A DNA stretch of 64,000 nt from Lactobacillus xujianguonis. GTDB lineage: Bacteria > Bacillota > Bacilli > Lactobacillales > Lactobacillaceae. Shown here in pieces: positions 1 to 48,164 of the stretch (position 1 is its first letter; the number at the start of each line of letters is the position of its first letter). The stretch is from the NCBI RefSeq assembly GCF_004009905.1, contig NZ_ML136877.1, positions 3,793 to 67,792 on the forward strand, read 5' to 3'. The notes under the pieces are model-generated. The model made no database searches, was not told where the DNA came from, and saw nothing but the letters and a program-made list of their open reading frames with translations. A program made the translations under genes and the position numbers.

Positions 1-68
1 GTACCCTTTTTAAGTTTGAAGTTCCCTCTTCTCAGCCCAAAGCTCTCAATCTTTAAGTAATTTTCACT

Positions 69-1529
69 CTAAAACAGCTTATTGAAAAAATATATTCCTC
101 TACTTTCTTTTCTCATAATTCCTAATTTAATACATTTTTGGATATATTTTGAAGCAGTATGCGATGTTACTTTTAAATGAGTTGCTAAGGCATCTCTATT
201 AAACGAATACTTAAATTCGTACTTGTTAAAGAAATCCATAATTTTATTTACAGTAATTTGTCTAAATTCTTCACTTAATTTACTTTTATATCTAATTTCA
301 ACATCTTCAAGAAATTCTTGTGATGTCTTTTCTTTATTCTGCTCTATTTTCTTATTCTTCTTAACAAGCGTAGCCACTCCTCGATTAGGTAAAGTAACCC
401 AAAAGATAGTATCATCTGAATAAAAATCAGGTTGCTCTACAAAATTTTCATAAGATTCAAGAATTCTCTGAATCCCGCTACCACGTCTGTCCATATAATG
501 TAATCGACTAAAGAAATCAGGAATTATTTCATTTCGTCTCATCGATGGGACCTTCTTCAAATTGAGGTCCTGAATTCTACTTCCATTCATCATTCCACCT
601 GGTGACATTACCTCTATTCTGTCATCAAACATATCAACATGAACTTCAGATCCTCGAATTTGATAGTCTCTATGAATTAATGCATTAACAAGTACCTCTC
701 TCACTGCCTTGAATGGATAATCACTTCTTTCCTCACGAGTCATCCCCACAATTGTCCAAGGTTTCTTAGAATTTACTTTTACAAAAGTTTCAGCATTAGT
801 AAGTAAGGTAATTAAACTTGTATCAGAAAATTCTGCATCATCTAACGCATCCCCATCAATACTACCTTTCTGATTTCCCTTCCATCTCGTGCAAACTATC
901 TTAGATTGCTTCAAAAGCCCCTGATCACTCATTAATAATCCGGCATTAGTTATCTGCCCATCATCTGTCATGAATCCCATCGAAGTCAAATCTGTAGCAT
1001 AATTAAAGGATTCACCTGTCTTTTGTTTAAAAGTTGCAGCCATTAAAGTGAAACTAACATCAGACAAAGGGATACTTGTTGGCAAAGCATCAAAACTCTT
1101 ATTTAAGCCTCTTAACAGCAAATTATTTTGTTCAATTGAAGTAGCCTTTTCCGATCTATCACCGTGTCTAATAAAAATCTTTCTACCTTGTTGATTAACA
1201 TAATAGTAAGGATAATTGGGGCCATTCGTGACTTCCAAATCAATACATTTTTTATCAGAGTTTAAATTATTAATCTGCTCTAAGGTAAAACGTGGATATG
1301 GCTTTACATGAGCTTAGATTAGTTCTGATATTTTAGTAGAAACCGTTTGTAAATCATCTATTCCTACAAATTCATGGGTCTTATCAGTTACGCCAAAGAT
1401 AATATGACCACCTTTAGTATTAGCAAACGCAACTACTGACTTTAGCCAACTAATCGGTTTTTTGAGTTCTAACTTTTCTTTATAATCAAGATAAGTTGCC
1501 TCCATGCCTTTTACATCTTCCCAGTTCAT
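69..1529 (-). pseudogene. AlbA_2 (Schlafen-like) ATP-binding/HTH protein, interrupted by an in-frame TAA
   Basis: The minus strand holds two open stretches in the same frame: an N-terminal piece of 71 codons (1529 to 1317) and a 389-codon piece (1238 to 69). They are separated by a TAA at 1314-1316 followed by 25 sense codons. Read through the TAA, the product is about 486 residues. The N-terminus has the AlbA_2 pattern (YKEKLEL, then FANTKGGHIIFGV). The C-terminal part has the ATPase-like VREVLVNALIHRDY and GSGIQRILE segments and ends in a winged-helix-like region. Members of this family (ATP-dependent helicase/transcriptional regulator-like) are usually one chain of about this length. The ribosome site TAGGAGAG lies before the ATG at 1529. 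The TAA is either a true nonsense mutation or a sequencing error. No in-frame ATG follows the stop closely, so the large fragment is unlikely to be translated well. Confidence 0.8.
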
Positions 1530-5132: not shown

Positions 5133-5265
5133 TCTCCATTCCAGAATTATCGTGGTCAGAAACAGAAATAGCCGACTATAGTTACGAACATAACTTGAAT
5201 ACTTCGTATTCTAAGTTAGTTCTACACTATCTCGGCTATTTCTCGAGAAGTTTCTGACCACTCAT
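5133..5265 (-). repeat. Dispersed structured repeat, copy 1
   Basis: First of three copies (others near 15524 and 30643). Nested inverted repeats are seen: GTGGTCAGAAAC (5152-5163) with its exact complement (5250-5261), AGAAATAGCCGA (5164-5175) with its exact complement (5232-5243), and a central hairpin around 5187-5222 closed by GAATAC/GTATTC. The right end supplies the TGA stop of the minus-strand DUF438/PAS gene, so on that strand the repeat is the start of the 3' untranslated region. No transposase or clear target-site duplication is seen. Confidence 0.9.
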
Positions 5266-6581
5266 TTTTTCTGATCGTGATAACGTTTTTCAAATTGATC
5301 TTTATTCTCTAACGTCTTCTGACCCGTAATATCCTTAAAGCGGGTAATATCTTGGACTACTTCTAGGCAGCCTAGATAATTATCATCTTTATCGCGCACA
5401 GCATAAAAGCAAAGATAAATCGTTCTACCATGCACATCGACCCAAAAGTCTTCACTATCAGCTAATCCTTGATGGAAATCTTGCAAAATTTCCATTACCT
5501 TGTCAATACTGCGTGGCGGATGACATCTAATCACTGGCCGGCCGATAACACTCCGTGTCCGCGGAAAGGTTCGATCAGAATTAGAGAACCACTTAACGCG
5601 GTCATACTTATTAACAAAAGTTAAATCGATTGGCAACACGTTAAAGATTGCTGGAATTTCTTTCAAACTTAATGAACCAATTTCCAGTTTCAAGGTCATA
5701 TCGCCAACATTCTTTAAGACCAGGTCAGGACTGTTATCCTCATTACCAACTGGATAACTTTCATCCCCTCTTAAAGGTTCAACTGGCGTATCCGCATAAA
5801 CCCGATTTTCTGGTTGCCGGTAACGCTTCAAGAACTTGCGATAAGCGGATCTTGTTTCAGAATTCAACTGGCCGCCATTATTCTGTTCCCACTTAAATTC
5901 ATCGCGTTCTTCATCTGAAGGATGCCATGAAGGTGGTTGCTTGATCAAACAATAGCCGACTTCTAATTCATCCTGCTTAACCATGTACCAGTCATCTGGC
6001 GTCAAAATAATCGATAAAATTGGCAAAAAGATGGTATTTTCTTTAAAAATCATTTCCATCACTGCGCTAGCAACTTTTTCGACCTTGGCCTCAATGACAT
6101 ATTTATCAGGCAGCGGATCTTTTTCTAATAAGGCCGCTGTATTCTTCACCATGGTTCTGATCTCGTCTTCAATACCCCATAAGAATGAAGAAGTATCATC
6201 ACTGACTAAACCATATTTAACTAAGAAGTTATAAAGCGAATTTTCTTTACGCAAATAATGGTACTTGATGTTCTTTAGCTTCTTTAAATCTCGCTGCAAG
6301 CAAGCTAGCAAGACAGCGTTTTTCCCATCTTGTTGCCACTTCTTCAGATCAGGCAACAAGTGATTCTACACTAAATCCTGAATGGCATCGTTTTCTAAAT
6401 ATAAAGTGCTCAAGGGATGCCCCTCTACTTGGGCATTAGCACAACGATACTTTTTAGCAGTACTTAAGATCGCACGTTTAGTTTCAATATTATCGTCATC
6501 ATTTTCGATAAGTTGCATCGCCTGCAACATATTCTGTTGCATTTTGGCGTCAATCTTCAAATTATTCACATGCTCACCCAC
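5262..6581 (-). pseudogene. DUF438/hemerythrin-like and PAS domain sensor protein, interrupted by in-frame TAG
   Basis: Two same-frame pieces: 71 codons from GTG 6581 to TAG 6366-6368, then, after two codons (AAT CAC), an open stretch from 6359 to 5262. Together they give about 439 codons. Around the stop the protein reads GHPLSTLYLENDAIQDLV, stop, NHLLPDLKKW. This is the continuous GHPxxTxxxENxAIxxL helix of DUF438/hemerythrin-like proteins, so the stop falls inside a domain and is not a gene boundary. The C-terminal third is a PAS domain (WFSNSDRTFPRTRSVIGRP, then GCLEVVQDITRFK). The family is a heme, oxygen or redox sensor type of unknown output. The TTG codons after the stop could restart translation and give a truncated PAS protein. 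Confidence 0.8.
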
Positions 6582-15492: not shown

Positions 15493-15519
15493 AAAAGTCT
15501 GGGAAATTCCCAGACTTTT
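15493..15519 (+). terminator. Terminator of tag
   Basis: AAAAGTCTGGGA, 3-nt loop, and the exact complement ending TTTT, directly after the tag stop codon. Confidence 0.9.
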
Positions 15520-15523
15520 AGCA

Positions 15524-15657
15524 TTCTCCATTTCAGAATTATCGTGGTCAGAAACAGAAATAGCCGACTATAGTTACGAACTTGGATTGAATACTTCGTA
15601 TTCTAATCCAGTTCTACACTATCTCGGCTATTTCTCGAGAAGTTTCTTCTCACTCAC
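15524..15657 (-). repeat. Dispersed structured repeat, copy 2
   Basis: Matches copy 1 over its length. The inner arms AGAAATAGCCGA and TCGGCTATTTCT are unchanged. The central stem reads TGGATT/AATCCA in place of TAACTT/AAGTTA and stays fully paired. The outer right arm has diverged (GTTTCTTCTCAC). It ends next to the TAG stop of the minus-strand usp gene and fills the space between the tag terminator and usp. Confidence 0.9.
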
Positions 15658-16143
15658 CTATGCTTTAGGCTTAATTGGATTGTTATCAATATCAGTTCTA
15701 ACAATCAACACATCAGCCAAAGCGTGTTGGTTAACGTATTCAGTAACTGAACCCATTAACATTCTTTCAACTGCGTTCAAACCAGTTGCACCCATCACAA
15801 TTAAGGTATCTTTATGGTCTTTGATAAAGTCATAAGAGATAATCCGCTTAGGGCTACCATAACGAATGTGATAATCAATATCATCAAAACCGAAATTATC
15901 GTGTGCCCACTTCTTTAAACTCTTCAAATACTCTTCTGAATCTTGCGTCATTTGGTAAATTGTATCGCCAGAAATCAAAGTATCTTGCATTTCACCCATG
16001 AATTGACGGGTATCAATTACGTTTAAGATATCAATATGAGCATTGTCAGTCATCGCAACTTTAACAGCTTTATCAAAAGCTCTTTCAGCTGATTCAGAAC
16101 CATCAACTGGTACTAAAATGCTTTCTTTCTTTTCCTTAGCCAA
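15658..16143 (-). CDS. Universal stress protein, UspA family
   Basis: An alpha/beta nucleotide-binding stress protein of about 160 residues. The UspA pattern is complete: ILVPVDGSESAERAF at the start, and the ATP-loop type VMGATGLNAVERMLMGSVTEYV near the C-terminus. The frame allows an ATG at 16152, but that ATG touches the TAGGAG site. The TTG at 16143 lies 9 bases from GGAG and gives MAKEKKESILVP, so I prefer it. Stop is immediately followed by the dispersed repeat. Confidence 0.9.
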   Translation of the reverse strand: MAKEKKESILVPVDGSESAERAFDKAVKVAMTDNAHIDILNVIDTRQFMGEMQDTLISGDTIYQMTQDSEEYLKSLKKWAHDNFGFDDIDYHIRYGSPKRIISYDFIKDHKDTLIVMGATGLNAVERMLMGSVTEYVNQHALADVLIVRTDIDNNPIKPKA

Positions 16144-16293
16144 AATTTTCATCTCCTATAAAATTATTTTTCCACTTACTTACCTCTTATTTTAGCATAA
16201 TTTTGAAATAGGTTACTTTTGTTTAATTGTTTCTTTTGAAAAATGTTGTTAGAATTGAGTTCAATGCTTATTTTTCGGTAAGGAGGGAAAATA

Positions 16294-30606: not shown

Positions 30607-30640
30607 AAAAGTGAGTGGGAAAATTTCCAGCCACTCTTTG
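30606..30640 (+). terminator. Terminator of the CAP-protein gene
   Basis: GAGTGG pairs with CCACTC, with further pairing inside (GGAAA with TTTCC), followed by TTT. It is directly joined to repeat copy 3. Confidence 0.65.
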
Positions 30641-30642
30641 CA

Positions 30643-30775
30643 TTCTCCATTCCAGAATTATCGTGTTCAGAAACAAAAATAGCCGACTATAGCTAGAACA
30701 TGACTTGAATACTTCGTATTCTAAGTCAGTTCTACGCTATCTCGGCTATTTGTCGAGGAGTTTCTTCACACTCAC
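30643..30775 (-). repeat. Dispersed structured repeat, copy 3
   Basis: Same layout as copies 1 and 2. The central stem reads TGACTT/AAGTCA, again fully paired and different from both other copies. The inner arm pair is AAAATAGCCGA/TCGGCTATTT. The right end supplies the TGA stop of the minus-strand ABC ATPase gene. Confidence 0.9.
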
Positions 30776-31512
30776 AAAACTTTCGCTAAAAAGTCCTGTG
30801 CCCGCTTGCTAGTCGGATGAGCAAAGAATTCTTCTGGCTTGTTCTTTTCTTGCAGATAACCATCTGCCATAAACCAGATTTCATCGGCAACTTCACGAGC
30901 AAAGCCCATTTCATGCGTTACCACAACCATTGTCATCCCTGAATTAGCCAAATCTTTCATGGTCGTTAATACTTCACCAACCATTTCCGGATCAAGCGCA
31001 CTAGTTGGTTCATCAAAGAGCATCACTTCGGGATGCATTGCCAAAGCTCTAGCAATCGCTACTCTTTGTTGTTGTCCACCAGAAAGACTAGTTGGATATT
31101 GTTGTGCGCGATCTTTTAAACCAACTTTAGCTAACAAGGACAAGGCTTCTTTTTCAGCTTCAGCCTCACTTTCACCTTTAACTTTCATTGGCGCCAATTT
31201 AATATTTTCAATGACGTTCATATTCGGGAACAAATTAAAGTTCTGGAAAACCATTCCCATCTTTTCCCGTAATTCATCTAACTCTTGACCGTCTTTTAAA
31301 CTAGCCAAATCAGTTCCGTCAAAGATAATCTTGCCGGACATTGGCCGTTCCAAGACGTTTAAGCAGCGCAAAAAAGTACTTTTACCTGAGCCTGAAGGGC
31401 CAATAATACAAATCACTTGGCCTTGATCAACTTCAGCGGAAATGTCCTTTAAGACTTCATTTTTGCCAAAATTCTTTTTTAAATGGTCAACTTTAATAAT
31501 TGCATTAGTCAT
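30772..31512 (-). CDS. Amino-acid ABC transporter ATP-binding protein (GlnQ type)
   Basis: 246 residues with Walker [11 protein letters not shown]-loop MVFQNFNLF, signature LSGGQQQR, Walker [13 protein letters not shown] and the H-loop VTHEMGF. It powers polar amino-acid uptake with the fused substrate-binding/permease protein upstream, whose end it overlaps by 8 bp. Its stop codon lies in repeat copy 3. A close paralogue is at 48.2 kb. Confidence 0.93.
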
Positions 31513-46232: not shown

Positions 46233-46261
46233 TCTTTTCAGTTAAATAAATTTCCCAATGC

Positions 46262-46400
46262 AATAGAGGTTGCGGCAAAGACAAAGTTGGTGGGAGCACA
46301 CGAATGCACTGAAAGCCAATGTAAGCTTCGTCGCCGAAATGAAATTCTTATTCGTGAGAGGATTTCGTTGGGCTACAGGAGAAGATCCTGTAGACTGTCC
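46262..46400 (+). promoter_or_regulatory. Lysine riboswitch (L-box)
   Basis: The conserved aptamer segments are in place: AGAGGTTGCGGC at the 5' side, a GGGAGCA segment, GCCGAAATGAAATT in the middle, TTGGGC, then a CTACAGGA/TCCTGTAG stem closed by GACTGTC at the 3' side. This is the order I know for the lysine aptamer. It begins about 30 bases after the -10 box. The reading frame crossing it is not a gene. It should switch off the transporter when lysine is plentiful. Confidence 0.85.
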
Positions 46401-46454
46401 TGGTTCGTCCCCAGGGAGCGCTATAAGATTTGGTTTAAGTACTGATGATTTGAC

Positions 46455-46489: not shown

Positions 46490-46538
46490 AGGCTTTTATT
46501 GTATTGGCTTTATGTAGAAAACATTGGAGGTTTTTTCA

Positions 46539-48164
46539 TTGAAGTCAAGATTTAATTGGATTGCTAGTTTCTTAGCAGTTCTCATTACCCTTATCGGCGG
46601 AATCGGATACAGCAACACGCAAGTTCAAGCTGCTAAAAAGGATTCCGGCGTCTTAAAGATTGGGATGGAGGCTAACTATCCTCCATACAATTGGACCCAA
46701 ACTAACGATGCCAATGGTGCAATTCCAATCGAAGGCTCAAAGAGTACTTGGGCTAACGGTTACGACGTCAAGATTGCTAAGATTTTAGGTAAAAAATTAC
46801 ACCGTAAGGTCGTCGCTGTTAAGACTGAATGGGATGGTTTACTTCCTGCCTTAACTTCTGGCAAGATTGATATGATCATCGCTGGGATGAGTCCTACGGC
46901 TGAACGTAAAAAAGCAATCAACTTCACTAAGCCATACCGGCGCGGTACTTTTGTAGTTATCACCAAGAACACTAGTCGTTTTGCTAACGCTAAGAAATTG
47001 ACTGATTTCAAAGGTGCTAAGTTAACGGCTCAACAAGGTACTTTCCACTACGATTTAATCAAAGAATTAAAAGGTGCTCACAGAGAACCTGCAATGCGTG
47101 ACTTCTCTGCTATGCGTCAAAGTTTAATCTCAGGCACTATCGATGGTTATGTTGCCGAAGACACGGAATCTACTTCTTTCAAGTTGGTAGATCCTGATAT
47201 TAAGGCTGTGCCAATCAGCAAAATGCCTGGCTTCCACGTTTCTGAAGAAGAATCTGTTTCTTCAATCGGGATTGCTAAATCTAACAAAAAACTTTTAAAA
47301 GAAGCTAATGCAATTTTAGCAACTATTCCTACTTCAGAACGTACCCGCTTAATGACTGAAGCTGTCAAGGAACAACCAAAGACTGACAGCAAGAGTAAGA
47401 ATGGTAAAAAAGAAAGCTGGCTTGTTTCTACCTGGAAACAATACGGCGGCATGATTATGTCAGGAATTGGCATGACATTGCTTTTAGCCCTGGTTGGTAC
47501 CATTGCCGGTTTCTTCATTGGTTTATTAGTTGGGATTATCCGGACCATCCCTACCCCTACTACTCGCGGTAAGCGTTGGGCTCTTAACTTCATCAAGTGG
47601 CTCTTATCAGTCTACGTTGAAGTCTTCCGTGGAACACCAATGATGGTTCAGGCTGCTGTTATCTACTACGGGATTGCTCAATTCTGGCACTTAAATATTA
47701 ACCGAACTGCAGCGGCTTTGATCATCGTTTCAATTAACACTGGTGCCTACTTAGCCGAAATTATCCGGGGCGGAATTATTTCTACTCCAGAAGGTCAATT
47801 TGAAGCTGCTAGTGCCTTGGGAATGACTCATAATCAAAGAATGTGGCACATTATCTTGCCACAAGCAATCAGAAACTGTTTACCATCAATTACTAACGAA
47901 TTCATCGTTAACATCAAGGATACTTCAGTATTGAGTATTATTTCTGTTTCAGAATTGTTCTTTGTTGGTACAACGATTGCGAGTCAAACCTTTAAGTTCT
48001 TCCCAACTTACCTCATGATTTCAGCAATTTACTTGATCTTAACCTTTACAATTACTCGGATCTTCAATTTAATTGAAAGAAAACTTGAAGGTAAAAAGAA
48101 CTACAATTTAATGGCCAACCAAGTACAAGTTGGTACACCTAAGGATGCGGAGGCAAATAACTAA
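46539..48164 (+). CDS. ABC transporter, substrate-binding domain fused to permease, probably for lysine
   Basis: 541 residues. A signal peptide or anchor (to about 35) is followed by a polar amino-acid binding domain ([31 protein letters not shown]) to about 285. The permease domain with an EAA loop ([26 protein letters not shown]) is at about 420-450. The lysine riboswitch ahead makes lysine the likely substrate. The frame begins at TTG 46524, but GGAGG fits the TTG at 46539 (MKSRFNW). The ATPase gene overlaps by one base. Confidence 0.9.

Follow-up and report, generated by a model that had tools for sequence, protein, structure and literature searches.

A dispersed family of long hairpins at gene 3' ends in Lactobacillus xujianguonis and other Lactobacillaceae

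The window, a 64-kb stretch of 64,000 nucleotides from the genome of Lactobacillus xujianguonis, contains three copies of a repeat of about 130 bp, all on the minus strand (copies 1 to 3, at 5133-5266, 15525-15658 and 30644-30776). They score 128.3 (the best match in the window), 118.3 and 108.7 bits with model R3, which detects no fourth copy in the window at E values up to 0.1. Upstream of copy 1 is a gene for a hemerythrin and PAS domain protein (5262-6359, minus strand), upstream of copy 2 a gene for a universal stress protein (Usp, 15658-16152, minus strand), and upstream of copy 3 a gene for an ABC transporter ATPase (30772-31512, minus strand). The stop codon TAG of the usp gene lies 4 nt before the outer stem of copy 2, and the TGA stop codons of the other two genes overlap the element. 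In copies 1 and 3 this TGA falls within the first bases of the element (TGAGTG), the element's own TGA being the gene stop. A preliminary description of this stretch had reported three copies abutting the stop codons of minus-strand genes, in a 3' untranslated position and sense to the upstream gene, and this is confirmed for all three.

Two unstranded terminator-like hairpins are found directly past the 3' ends of copy 2 (15493-15519, AAAAGTCTGGGAA...TTCCCAGACTTTT, between two converging genes) and copy 3 (30610-30639). By eye, the far arm of the latter (CACTCAC, minus strand) is complementary to the element start GTGAGTG. The window also carries a lysine riboswitch (46256-46431, plus strand, 85.1 bits) upstream of the reading frame 46524-48164, and this family was used as a control. 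The riboswitch is the only Rfam (release 15) match in the window at the gathering threshold. A search of 20 element loci at E values up to 1 gave ten Rfam matches, all below the gathering scores, and any that touch the element do so only at its end. A known Rfam RNA was rejected as the identity of the element, given that no family reaches its gathering score there.

The three window copies are similar (mean column identity of 89% in the alignment) and are predicted to fold stably, with energies of -58.2, -53.5 and -51.8 kcal/mol for copies 1, 2 and 3 (z scores of -11.2, -6.9 and -6.3 against 200 dinucleotide shuffles, none of which folded as well). Copy 1 consists of a perfect outer stem of 12 bp (5' arm 5250-5261 paired with 3' arm 5152-5163, minus strand), a 6-nt one-sided bulge, a middle stem, an apical hairpin (5186-5222, minus strand) and a 3' tail. 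The outer stem has three mismatches in copy 2 and two in copy 3. The apical stems singled out in the preliminary description, TAACTT/AAGTTA, TGGATT/AATCCA and TGACTT/AAGTCA, read as given there and are complementary in each copy.

Across the family, the element is about 120-135 bp long, has no coding capacity and occurs in many copies, a size and copy number that fit those of MITEs (<300 bp). The fold is a single long imperfect hairpin of about 45 pairs with conserved internal loops. AGTGAGTG is found at the 5' end of most copies. The outer stem has 12-13 pairs, with a G.A/A.G tandem mismatch in 12 of the 16 full copies of the L. xujianguonis genome, and the one-sided bulge above it is mostly TTCTCG in these copies. 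Above the bulge come the middle stem, an internal loop of G against AG, a run of five pairs, a 3x3 loop and the apical hairpin. The 3x3 loop is GUA/GUA in Lactobacillus and mostly CUA/GUA in a second genus described below. On the 3' side, the outer stem closes with CAC, followed by a G and a tail of about 20-25 nt; the sequence after the stem is GACCACGATAATTC or similar, without a T-run. The internal-loop motifs are conserved across genera. The 5' AGTGAGTGGGAA also belongs to the element; we rejected its origin as the remnant of a terminator arm, since the second genus conserves it too. Two copies from genome G430 (L313, 1501-1658, and L323, 1501-1656) carry a further small hairpin, about 22 nt long, within the 3' arm next to the conserved CGTAG.

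The L. xujianguonis genome (G000; 2,215,780 bases in 81 contigs, with the window in contig C7) was searched with blastn, which returned 29 places. These comprise 16 near-complete copies, 6 partial copies and 7 opposite-strand matches over the same palindromes. The window trio is thus part of a larger family, and the count of three given in the preliminary description is a great understatement. The partial copies are remnants beside stop codons. Three mini forms that keep the outer stem were detected with model R1, one clearly (C3:24619-24676, E 4.4e-7) and two as weak matches (C2:121837-121891, E 0.03; C4:28961-29010, E 0.6). In contig C28, two copies face each other and have one terminator-like hairpin in common.

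Within the genus Lactobacillus, the element was found by blastn in 2 of 75 genomes, L. xujianguonis and G037, and model R1 agrees. G037 is highly fragmented and probably metagenome-assembled. In two of its copies (L031 and L032) the apical arms come from different subtypes and are mismatched, pointing to recombination or an assembly artefact; the probable origin and fragmentation of G037 mean that these mosaic copies may be artefacts. When 84,980 species genomes were scanned for one exact pattern, the only record returned was a Candidatus Lactobacillus pullistercoris MAG; its copy and copy L030 of G037 are identical, which is why G037 is taken as probably metagenome-assembled.

Model R1, built on Lactobacillus copies alone, detected two more genomes among 395 of the order, both in one other genus (E 1.8e-10 and 1.0e-9). 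Copies from these two genomes match Limosilactobacillus fermentum at 14 places in 2 records and at 10 places in 3 records, with identities mostly of 72-75%, and on the basis of these matches we take the second genus to be probably Limosilactobacillus. Diverged relatives were found in 24 of 37 genomes of the second genus with covariance model R2, which was built from 20 of the 22 Lactobacillus copies and two others. The genome G461 (1.9 Mb) has up to 61 R2 matches, a few of which may be on the opposite strand, and 38 are listed individually. Model R3 detected the element in 15 of 395 genomes across the order, in 11 of 80 genera, one of them in a second family (G274), and by eye most of the 20 copies inspected from this search share the family core. 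Because the training set of R3 came mostly from the second genus, its matches there are not independent; R1, trained on Lactobacillus alone, still found the two second-genus genomes. Eight candidates were scored per genome in the order search, which makes absence in it weak evidence. Some neighbouring copies are arranged head to tail, about 116-250 bp from start to start (L245, L254, L261, L265 and L271 in G461; L306 and L317 in G379).

No match to the element type of L. xujianguonis was found in viral contigs, plasmids or phages, the patterns used on the viral contigs being exact and hence narrow. With no matches, a phage or plasmid element was rejected as the identity of this type. The same identity was rejected for the second type, whose matches in the plasmid collection are L. 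fermentum records that may be chromosome pieces. Many copies are present in two L. fermentum DR9 records labelled as plasmids, CP033372.1 (760 kb) and CP033373.1 (252 kb), which may be such pieces; CP033372.1 also carries a homoserine dehydrogenase gene. Nothing was found in the plasmid collection for three further diverged types.

The placement of the copies is mostly oriented. In L. xujianguonis, 15 of the 16 full copies begin 0-20 nt past a sense stop codon (of a reading frame with at least 120 stop-free codons), and three of the six copies in G037 do so at a distance of 7-22 nt (frames of at least 88 codons). The four exceptions (1 of 16 and 3 of 6) run antisense to the genes on either side, and their 3' ends face a hairpin near the end of the next gene. 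Outside Lactobacillus, a sense stop lies within 25 nt of the 5' end in 56 of 96 copies, compared with 4 of 96 for the reverse-orientation control at the other end. The remaining 40 copies comprise 22 that face an antisense gene's stop codon and 18 with neither arrangement. A shared theme among the upstream genes was considered and rejected, as none was seen (mostly by eye).

Of 102 copies, 53 have a terminator-like hairpin with a T-run in the 3' flank and 6 have one in the 5' flank, a count that excludes L002, where a contig end is near. The preliminary description had suggested termination as one role of the hairpin. This is not supported for the element hairpin itself, as no T-run follows its stem and a separate terminator often comes after it; a plain intrinsic terminator was rejected for the lack of a T-run. 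At three sites in L. xujianguonis (L013, L010 and L008, behind greA-like, DUF308-like and signal-peptidase-like genes, named by eye), relatives have a terminator-like hairpin where L. xujianguonis has the element and, by eye, no such hairpin. The relatives are other species, with gene ends 74-85% identical. In L004 and L009 the arm past the element is, by eye, complementary to bases preceding the element, which looks like a terminator that was split.

Pairing in the hairpin is well kept. In the 16 full L. xujianguonis copies, 95.8% of 718 cells pair and two-sided changes occur in 20 of 45 pairs, with 61 two-sided cells compared with 17.7 in shuffles. The alignment of both genera (A6, 77 copies: 12 Lactobacillus and 65 other rows) has 785 two-sided cells, compared with 236.8 in shuffles and at most 170 in slid versions. 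RNAalifold predicted 31 pairs on the same 77 rows, 25 of them with two-sided change. A6 and the alignment A5 (78 matches from 75 sources, with the second-genus loci L209, L210, L215, L218, L220 and L231-L239 left out) were fitted to the model structure, which favours standard pairs; the A6 rows aligned by sequence alone gave 25 pairs, with 9.5% G-U and a ratio of one-sided to two-sided changes of 0.25. The pairing is thus kept in many more copies than the three of the window, and the paired form is kept over long times.

How the pairs change is a separate matter. The lower three stems (H1-H3) have one-sided to two-sided ratios of 0.04, 0.04 and 0.00 and G-U in 1.4, 5.1 and 0.0% of cells. The apical stem has a ratio of 0.37 with 14.8% G-U; the control set of 28 distinct lysine riboswitches from the same genus has 0.45 with 12.9% G-U. 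Between nearest-neighbour copies of L. xujianguonis, 24 changes are two-sided and 8 one-sided, compared with 11 and 50 in the riboswitch control. The corresponding counts are 20 and 14 when G037 is included, 31 and 29 in G461, and 57 and 53 in the second genus overall. This speaks for coupled change of both arms, strongest in L. xujianguonis, through template switching or exchange between copies; coupled arm change is the expectation of templated arm correction as described in PMC8794818. The preliminary description had taken compensatory changes among the three copies as evidence that the folded form itself is kept. The pairing is indeed kept, but as proof of a selected RNA fold the argument is weaker than claimed, because the L. 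xujianguonis copies change both arms far above the riboswitch control and covariation alone is then no proof of RNA selection.

Mispairs differ between the genera. On the sense strand of 78 copies of the second genus, G-U and A-C mispairs number 379 and 39, a count that includes apical columns with fixed G-U, while slid controls give ratios of 0.8-2.7. A stricter count on 28 pairs, chosen after the pair counts had been viewed, gives 54 G-U and 9 A-C, and with one copy per genome 17 and 3 (p 0.016 against 0.6, a binomial value that is our reading of the slid controls). Lactobacillus has no such bias (2:2 in 16 copies and 5:7 in 22 copies). In 73 of 78 copies of the second genus and in all 22 Lactobacillus copies, the fold of the sense strand is better than that of the antisense strand. 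The excess of G-U in the second genus favours a fold of the sense strand. G-T is the milder mispair in DNA too, and a single DNA strand that folds, as in IS200/IS605-type movement, would therefore produce a similar but weaker bias.

Several observations bear on mobility. Eight L. xujianguonis sites have a best-match region in G037 (usp, ABC and six more), and the element is absent from all eight there; the gene ends before these sites are 72-85% identical between the two genomes. The elements themselves have a mean identity of 0.868 between the genomes (best 0.969), compared with 0.866 within L. xujianguonis. In a tree of the copies, neither genome's copies form one group. They cluster by genome beyond chance (2 changes compared with a shuffled mean of 5.4, none of 500 shuffles being as low) and 10 of 19 inner branches lack resolution, so the tree by itself is no proof of movement between species. 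Taken together, the likeness of the elements, the divergence of the gene ends and the patchy distribution point to movement within genomes and suggest movement between genomes.

Descent from a mobile element, named in the preliminary description as an outcome that would refute its reading, is likely given that the element is dispersed and patchy. However, no transposase-bearing parent was seen among the loci viewed, and no clear target duplication was found, with no close strain offering an empty site; both count against a mobile element, as does the lack of matches to the L. xujianguonis type in phages, plasmids and viral contigs. Possible AGT or GAGTG repeats were seen by eye in L004, L009 and L031 only. 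Also against it, the 3' tail of 20-25 nt lies outside the outer stem, unlike in a classic MITE, and a sense stop is missing before 1 of 16 L. xujianguonis copies and 3 of 6 in G037 and, within 25 nt, before 40 of 96 copies elsewhere. At L176, a frame resembling an ISL3-type transposase by eye (36-1361, minus strand) lies about 140 bp past the 3' end of a copy.

The element resembles several known kinds of repeat. Most EFAR (Enterococcus faecalis repeats) are about 170 bp long with two stem-loops, and they insert into stem-loops while part of the target stems is kept. EFAR are, like the present element, small palindromic elements in a member of the same order, compared here by description only, and the three copies that occupy terminator positions of relatives may recall their use of sites. 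They are counted among MITEs in PMC3733652, and Efa elements are described as preferentially near gene 3' ends in PMC1590033. The present family differs in its range as found here, which covers Lactobacillaceae and one genome of another family of the order, with no copy shown in Enterococcus. REPINs and REPs are likewise dispersed extragenic hairpins with compensatory changes and tandem clusters, described as folding in single-stranded DNA or mRNA (PMC3116915), and ribosomes are reported to stall at REPs that lie within 15 nt of a stop (Liang 2015, cited in PMC12306157). In contrast to REPINs, the present element is one asymmetric long hairpin rather than an inverted REP doublet, lies mostly sense behind stops and shows no conserved GTAG-type tag by eye; a GTGG seen by eye at the stem base of many copies is not conserved. 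We liken the element to EFAR and REPINs by kind and claim membership in neither. ERIC, YPAL, RUP and the NEMIS/Correia MITEs are also intergenic long hairpins of about 100-170 bp, and RNA from MITEs is described as able to stabilise or destabilise neighbouring mRNA (PMC2229807, PMC3733652). MITEs are described with terminal inverted repeats of 15-30 bp (PMC3733652), whereas the present element has a 12-13 bp outer stem near its 5' tip, a 20-25 nt 3' tail outside it and an oriented placement. An intrinsic terminator shares the stable hairpin at gene ends, and at three sites the element takes the place of a relative's terminator; it differs from one in its missing T-run, about 45 pairs, conserved loops and the separate terminator-like hairpin that follows 53 of 102 copies. 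A survey of bacterial stem-loop families (PMC2267715) describes 7 clusters for E. faecalis and 3 for L. johnsonii.

We consider it moderately probable that the repeat is a small non-autonomous mobile hairpin family of the REPIN/EFAR/ERIC kind, in which the fold plays a role, inserted at gene 3' ends, at the intrinsic terminator or replacing it. The dispersal, patchy distribution, conserved pairing, orientation and position are all features of the copies themselves. HUH/Y1 enzymes recognise hairpin DNA. A putative trans-acting enzyme would recognise the folded strand through the conserved internal loops and would move the element into terminator stem-loops; with terminators located behind stops, and the element having one polarity toward the hairpin, most copies would come to lie sense to the upstream gene. 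The inserted hairpin would then be part of the mRNA 3' end and may shield the message from 3' exonucleases. Alternatively, it may provide a double-stranded site for processing or, if it lies no more than about 15 nt from the stop, may slow ribosomes, as reported for REPs. We infer such RNA effects on messages.

Elements of this kind are known, but the family looks new in itself, in its orientation and in its breadth across the Lactobacillaceae, and no description of it was found in the open-licence literature. A bolder proposal, which we regard as rather unlikely, is that of a strand-specific transposable 3'-UTR cassette across the Lactobacillaceae, in which a dedicated putative protein would read the conserved loop signature (UAGnnC...GnnCGUA around the 3x3 loop) and place the element in terminator sites, replacing and resetting mRNA 3' ends. 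With this family, lactic acid bacteria would have a common structured repeat that is absent from Rfam and located where transcripts end. Two questions become testable: whether mobile hairpins remodel mRNA 3' ends on a large scale, and to what extent covariation in repeats stems from RNA selection as opposed to arm-templated mutation, the family showing signs of both.

Two other accounts were weighed. In one, the hairpin is a host-selected element of the mRNA 3' UTR, kept for stability, processing or translation tuning, and its spread is secondary. This is consistent with the sense orientation directly behind stop codons, the excess of G-U over A-C on the sense strand of the second genus (379:39, 54:9, 17:3), the better folding of that strand (73/78 and 22/22) and the internal-loop motifs kept across genera. 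We nevertheless consider it unlikely: 73 of 75 members of the genus lack the element, the orthologous genes inspected in relatives lack it as well, the upstream genes have no common theme, Lactobacillus has no G-U bias (2:2 and 5:7), and stems H1-H3 have 0-5% G-U compared with 12.9% in the riboswitch control. In the other, a DNA palindrome has its arms matched by templated correction (template switching, a mechanism described in PMC8794818), with no selection on the folded strand, as the two-sided excess between nearest L. xujianguonis copies (24:8 compared with 11:50 for the riboswitch) and the low ratios of the lower stems (0.04, 0.04 and 0.00 compared with 0.45) would suggest. Yet the apical stem behaves like the control (0.37, 14.8% G-U) and nearest neighbours in the second genus are even (57:53). 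Correction should also erase mismatched loops, but both genera retain the 3x3 loop (GUA or CUA against GUA), and 12 of 16 L. xujianguonis copies retain the G.A tandem. With the sense-strand G-U bias of the second genus and the orientation bias added, this origin appears very unlikely.

A variant that is compatible with the mobile hairpin family is a longer mobile unit carrying its own terminator, a transplantable 3'-end cassette of hairpin, tail and a second stem-loop of the CTGGGAAA type. In L. xujianguonis and G037, 46 of 210 pairs of 3' flanks score at least 20, compared with 0 of 210 pairs of 5' flanks; at the same score, the 3' and 5' counts are 57 and 1 of 741 in G461, although tandem neighbours inflate the 3' score there, and 3 of 3 and 0 in each of G446 and G430. 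No 3' flank pair reaches 20 in G403, G487 and G135. Like 3' flanks at different sites mean that the second stem-loop may travel with the element in some lineages. Against this, 7 of the 22 Lactobacillus copies have no such hairpin within about 45 nt, the second hairpin also occurs at 4 sites without the element, and CTGGGA terminators may simply be common in these bacteria; we view the variant as possible but doubtful. The type is found at 7 sites in L. xujianguonis and 3 in G037, of which 4 and 2 adjoin the element, and at none in four relatives; near-identical second hairpins are present in L003, L004 and L031. Elsewhere in the L. xujianguonis genome (L139, about 1470-1520; C2:1931), a tail-like GGAGCATGC immediately precedes a CTGGGAA hairpin and may be all that remains of a lost copy.
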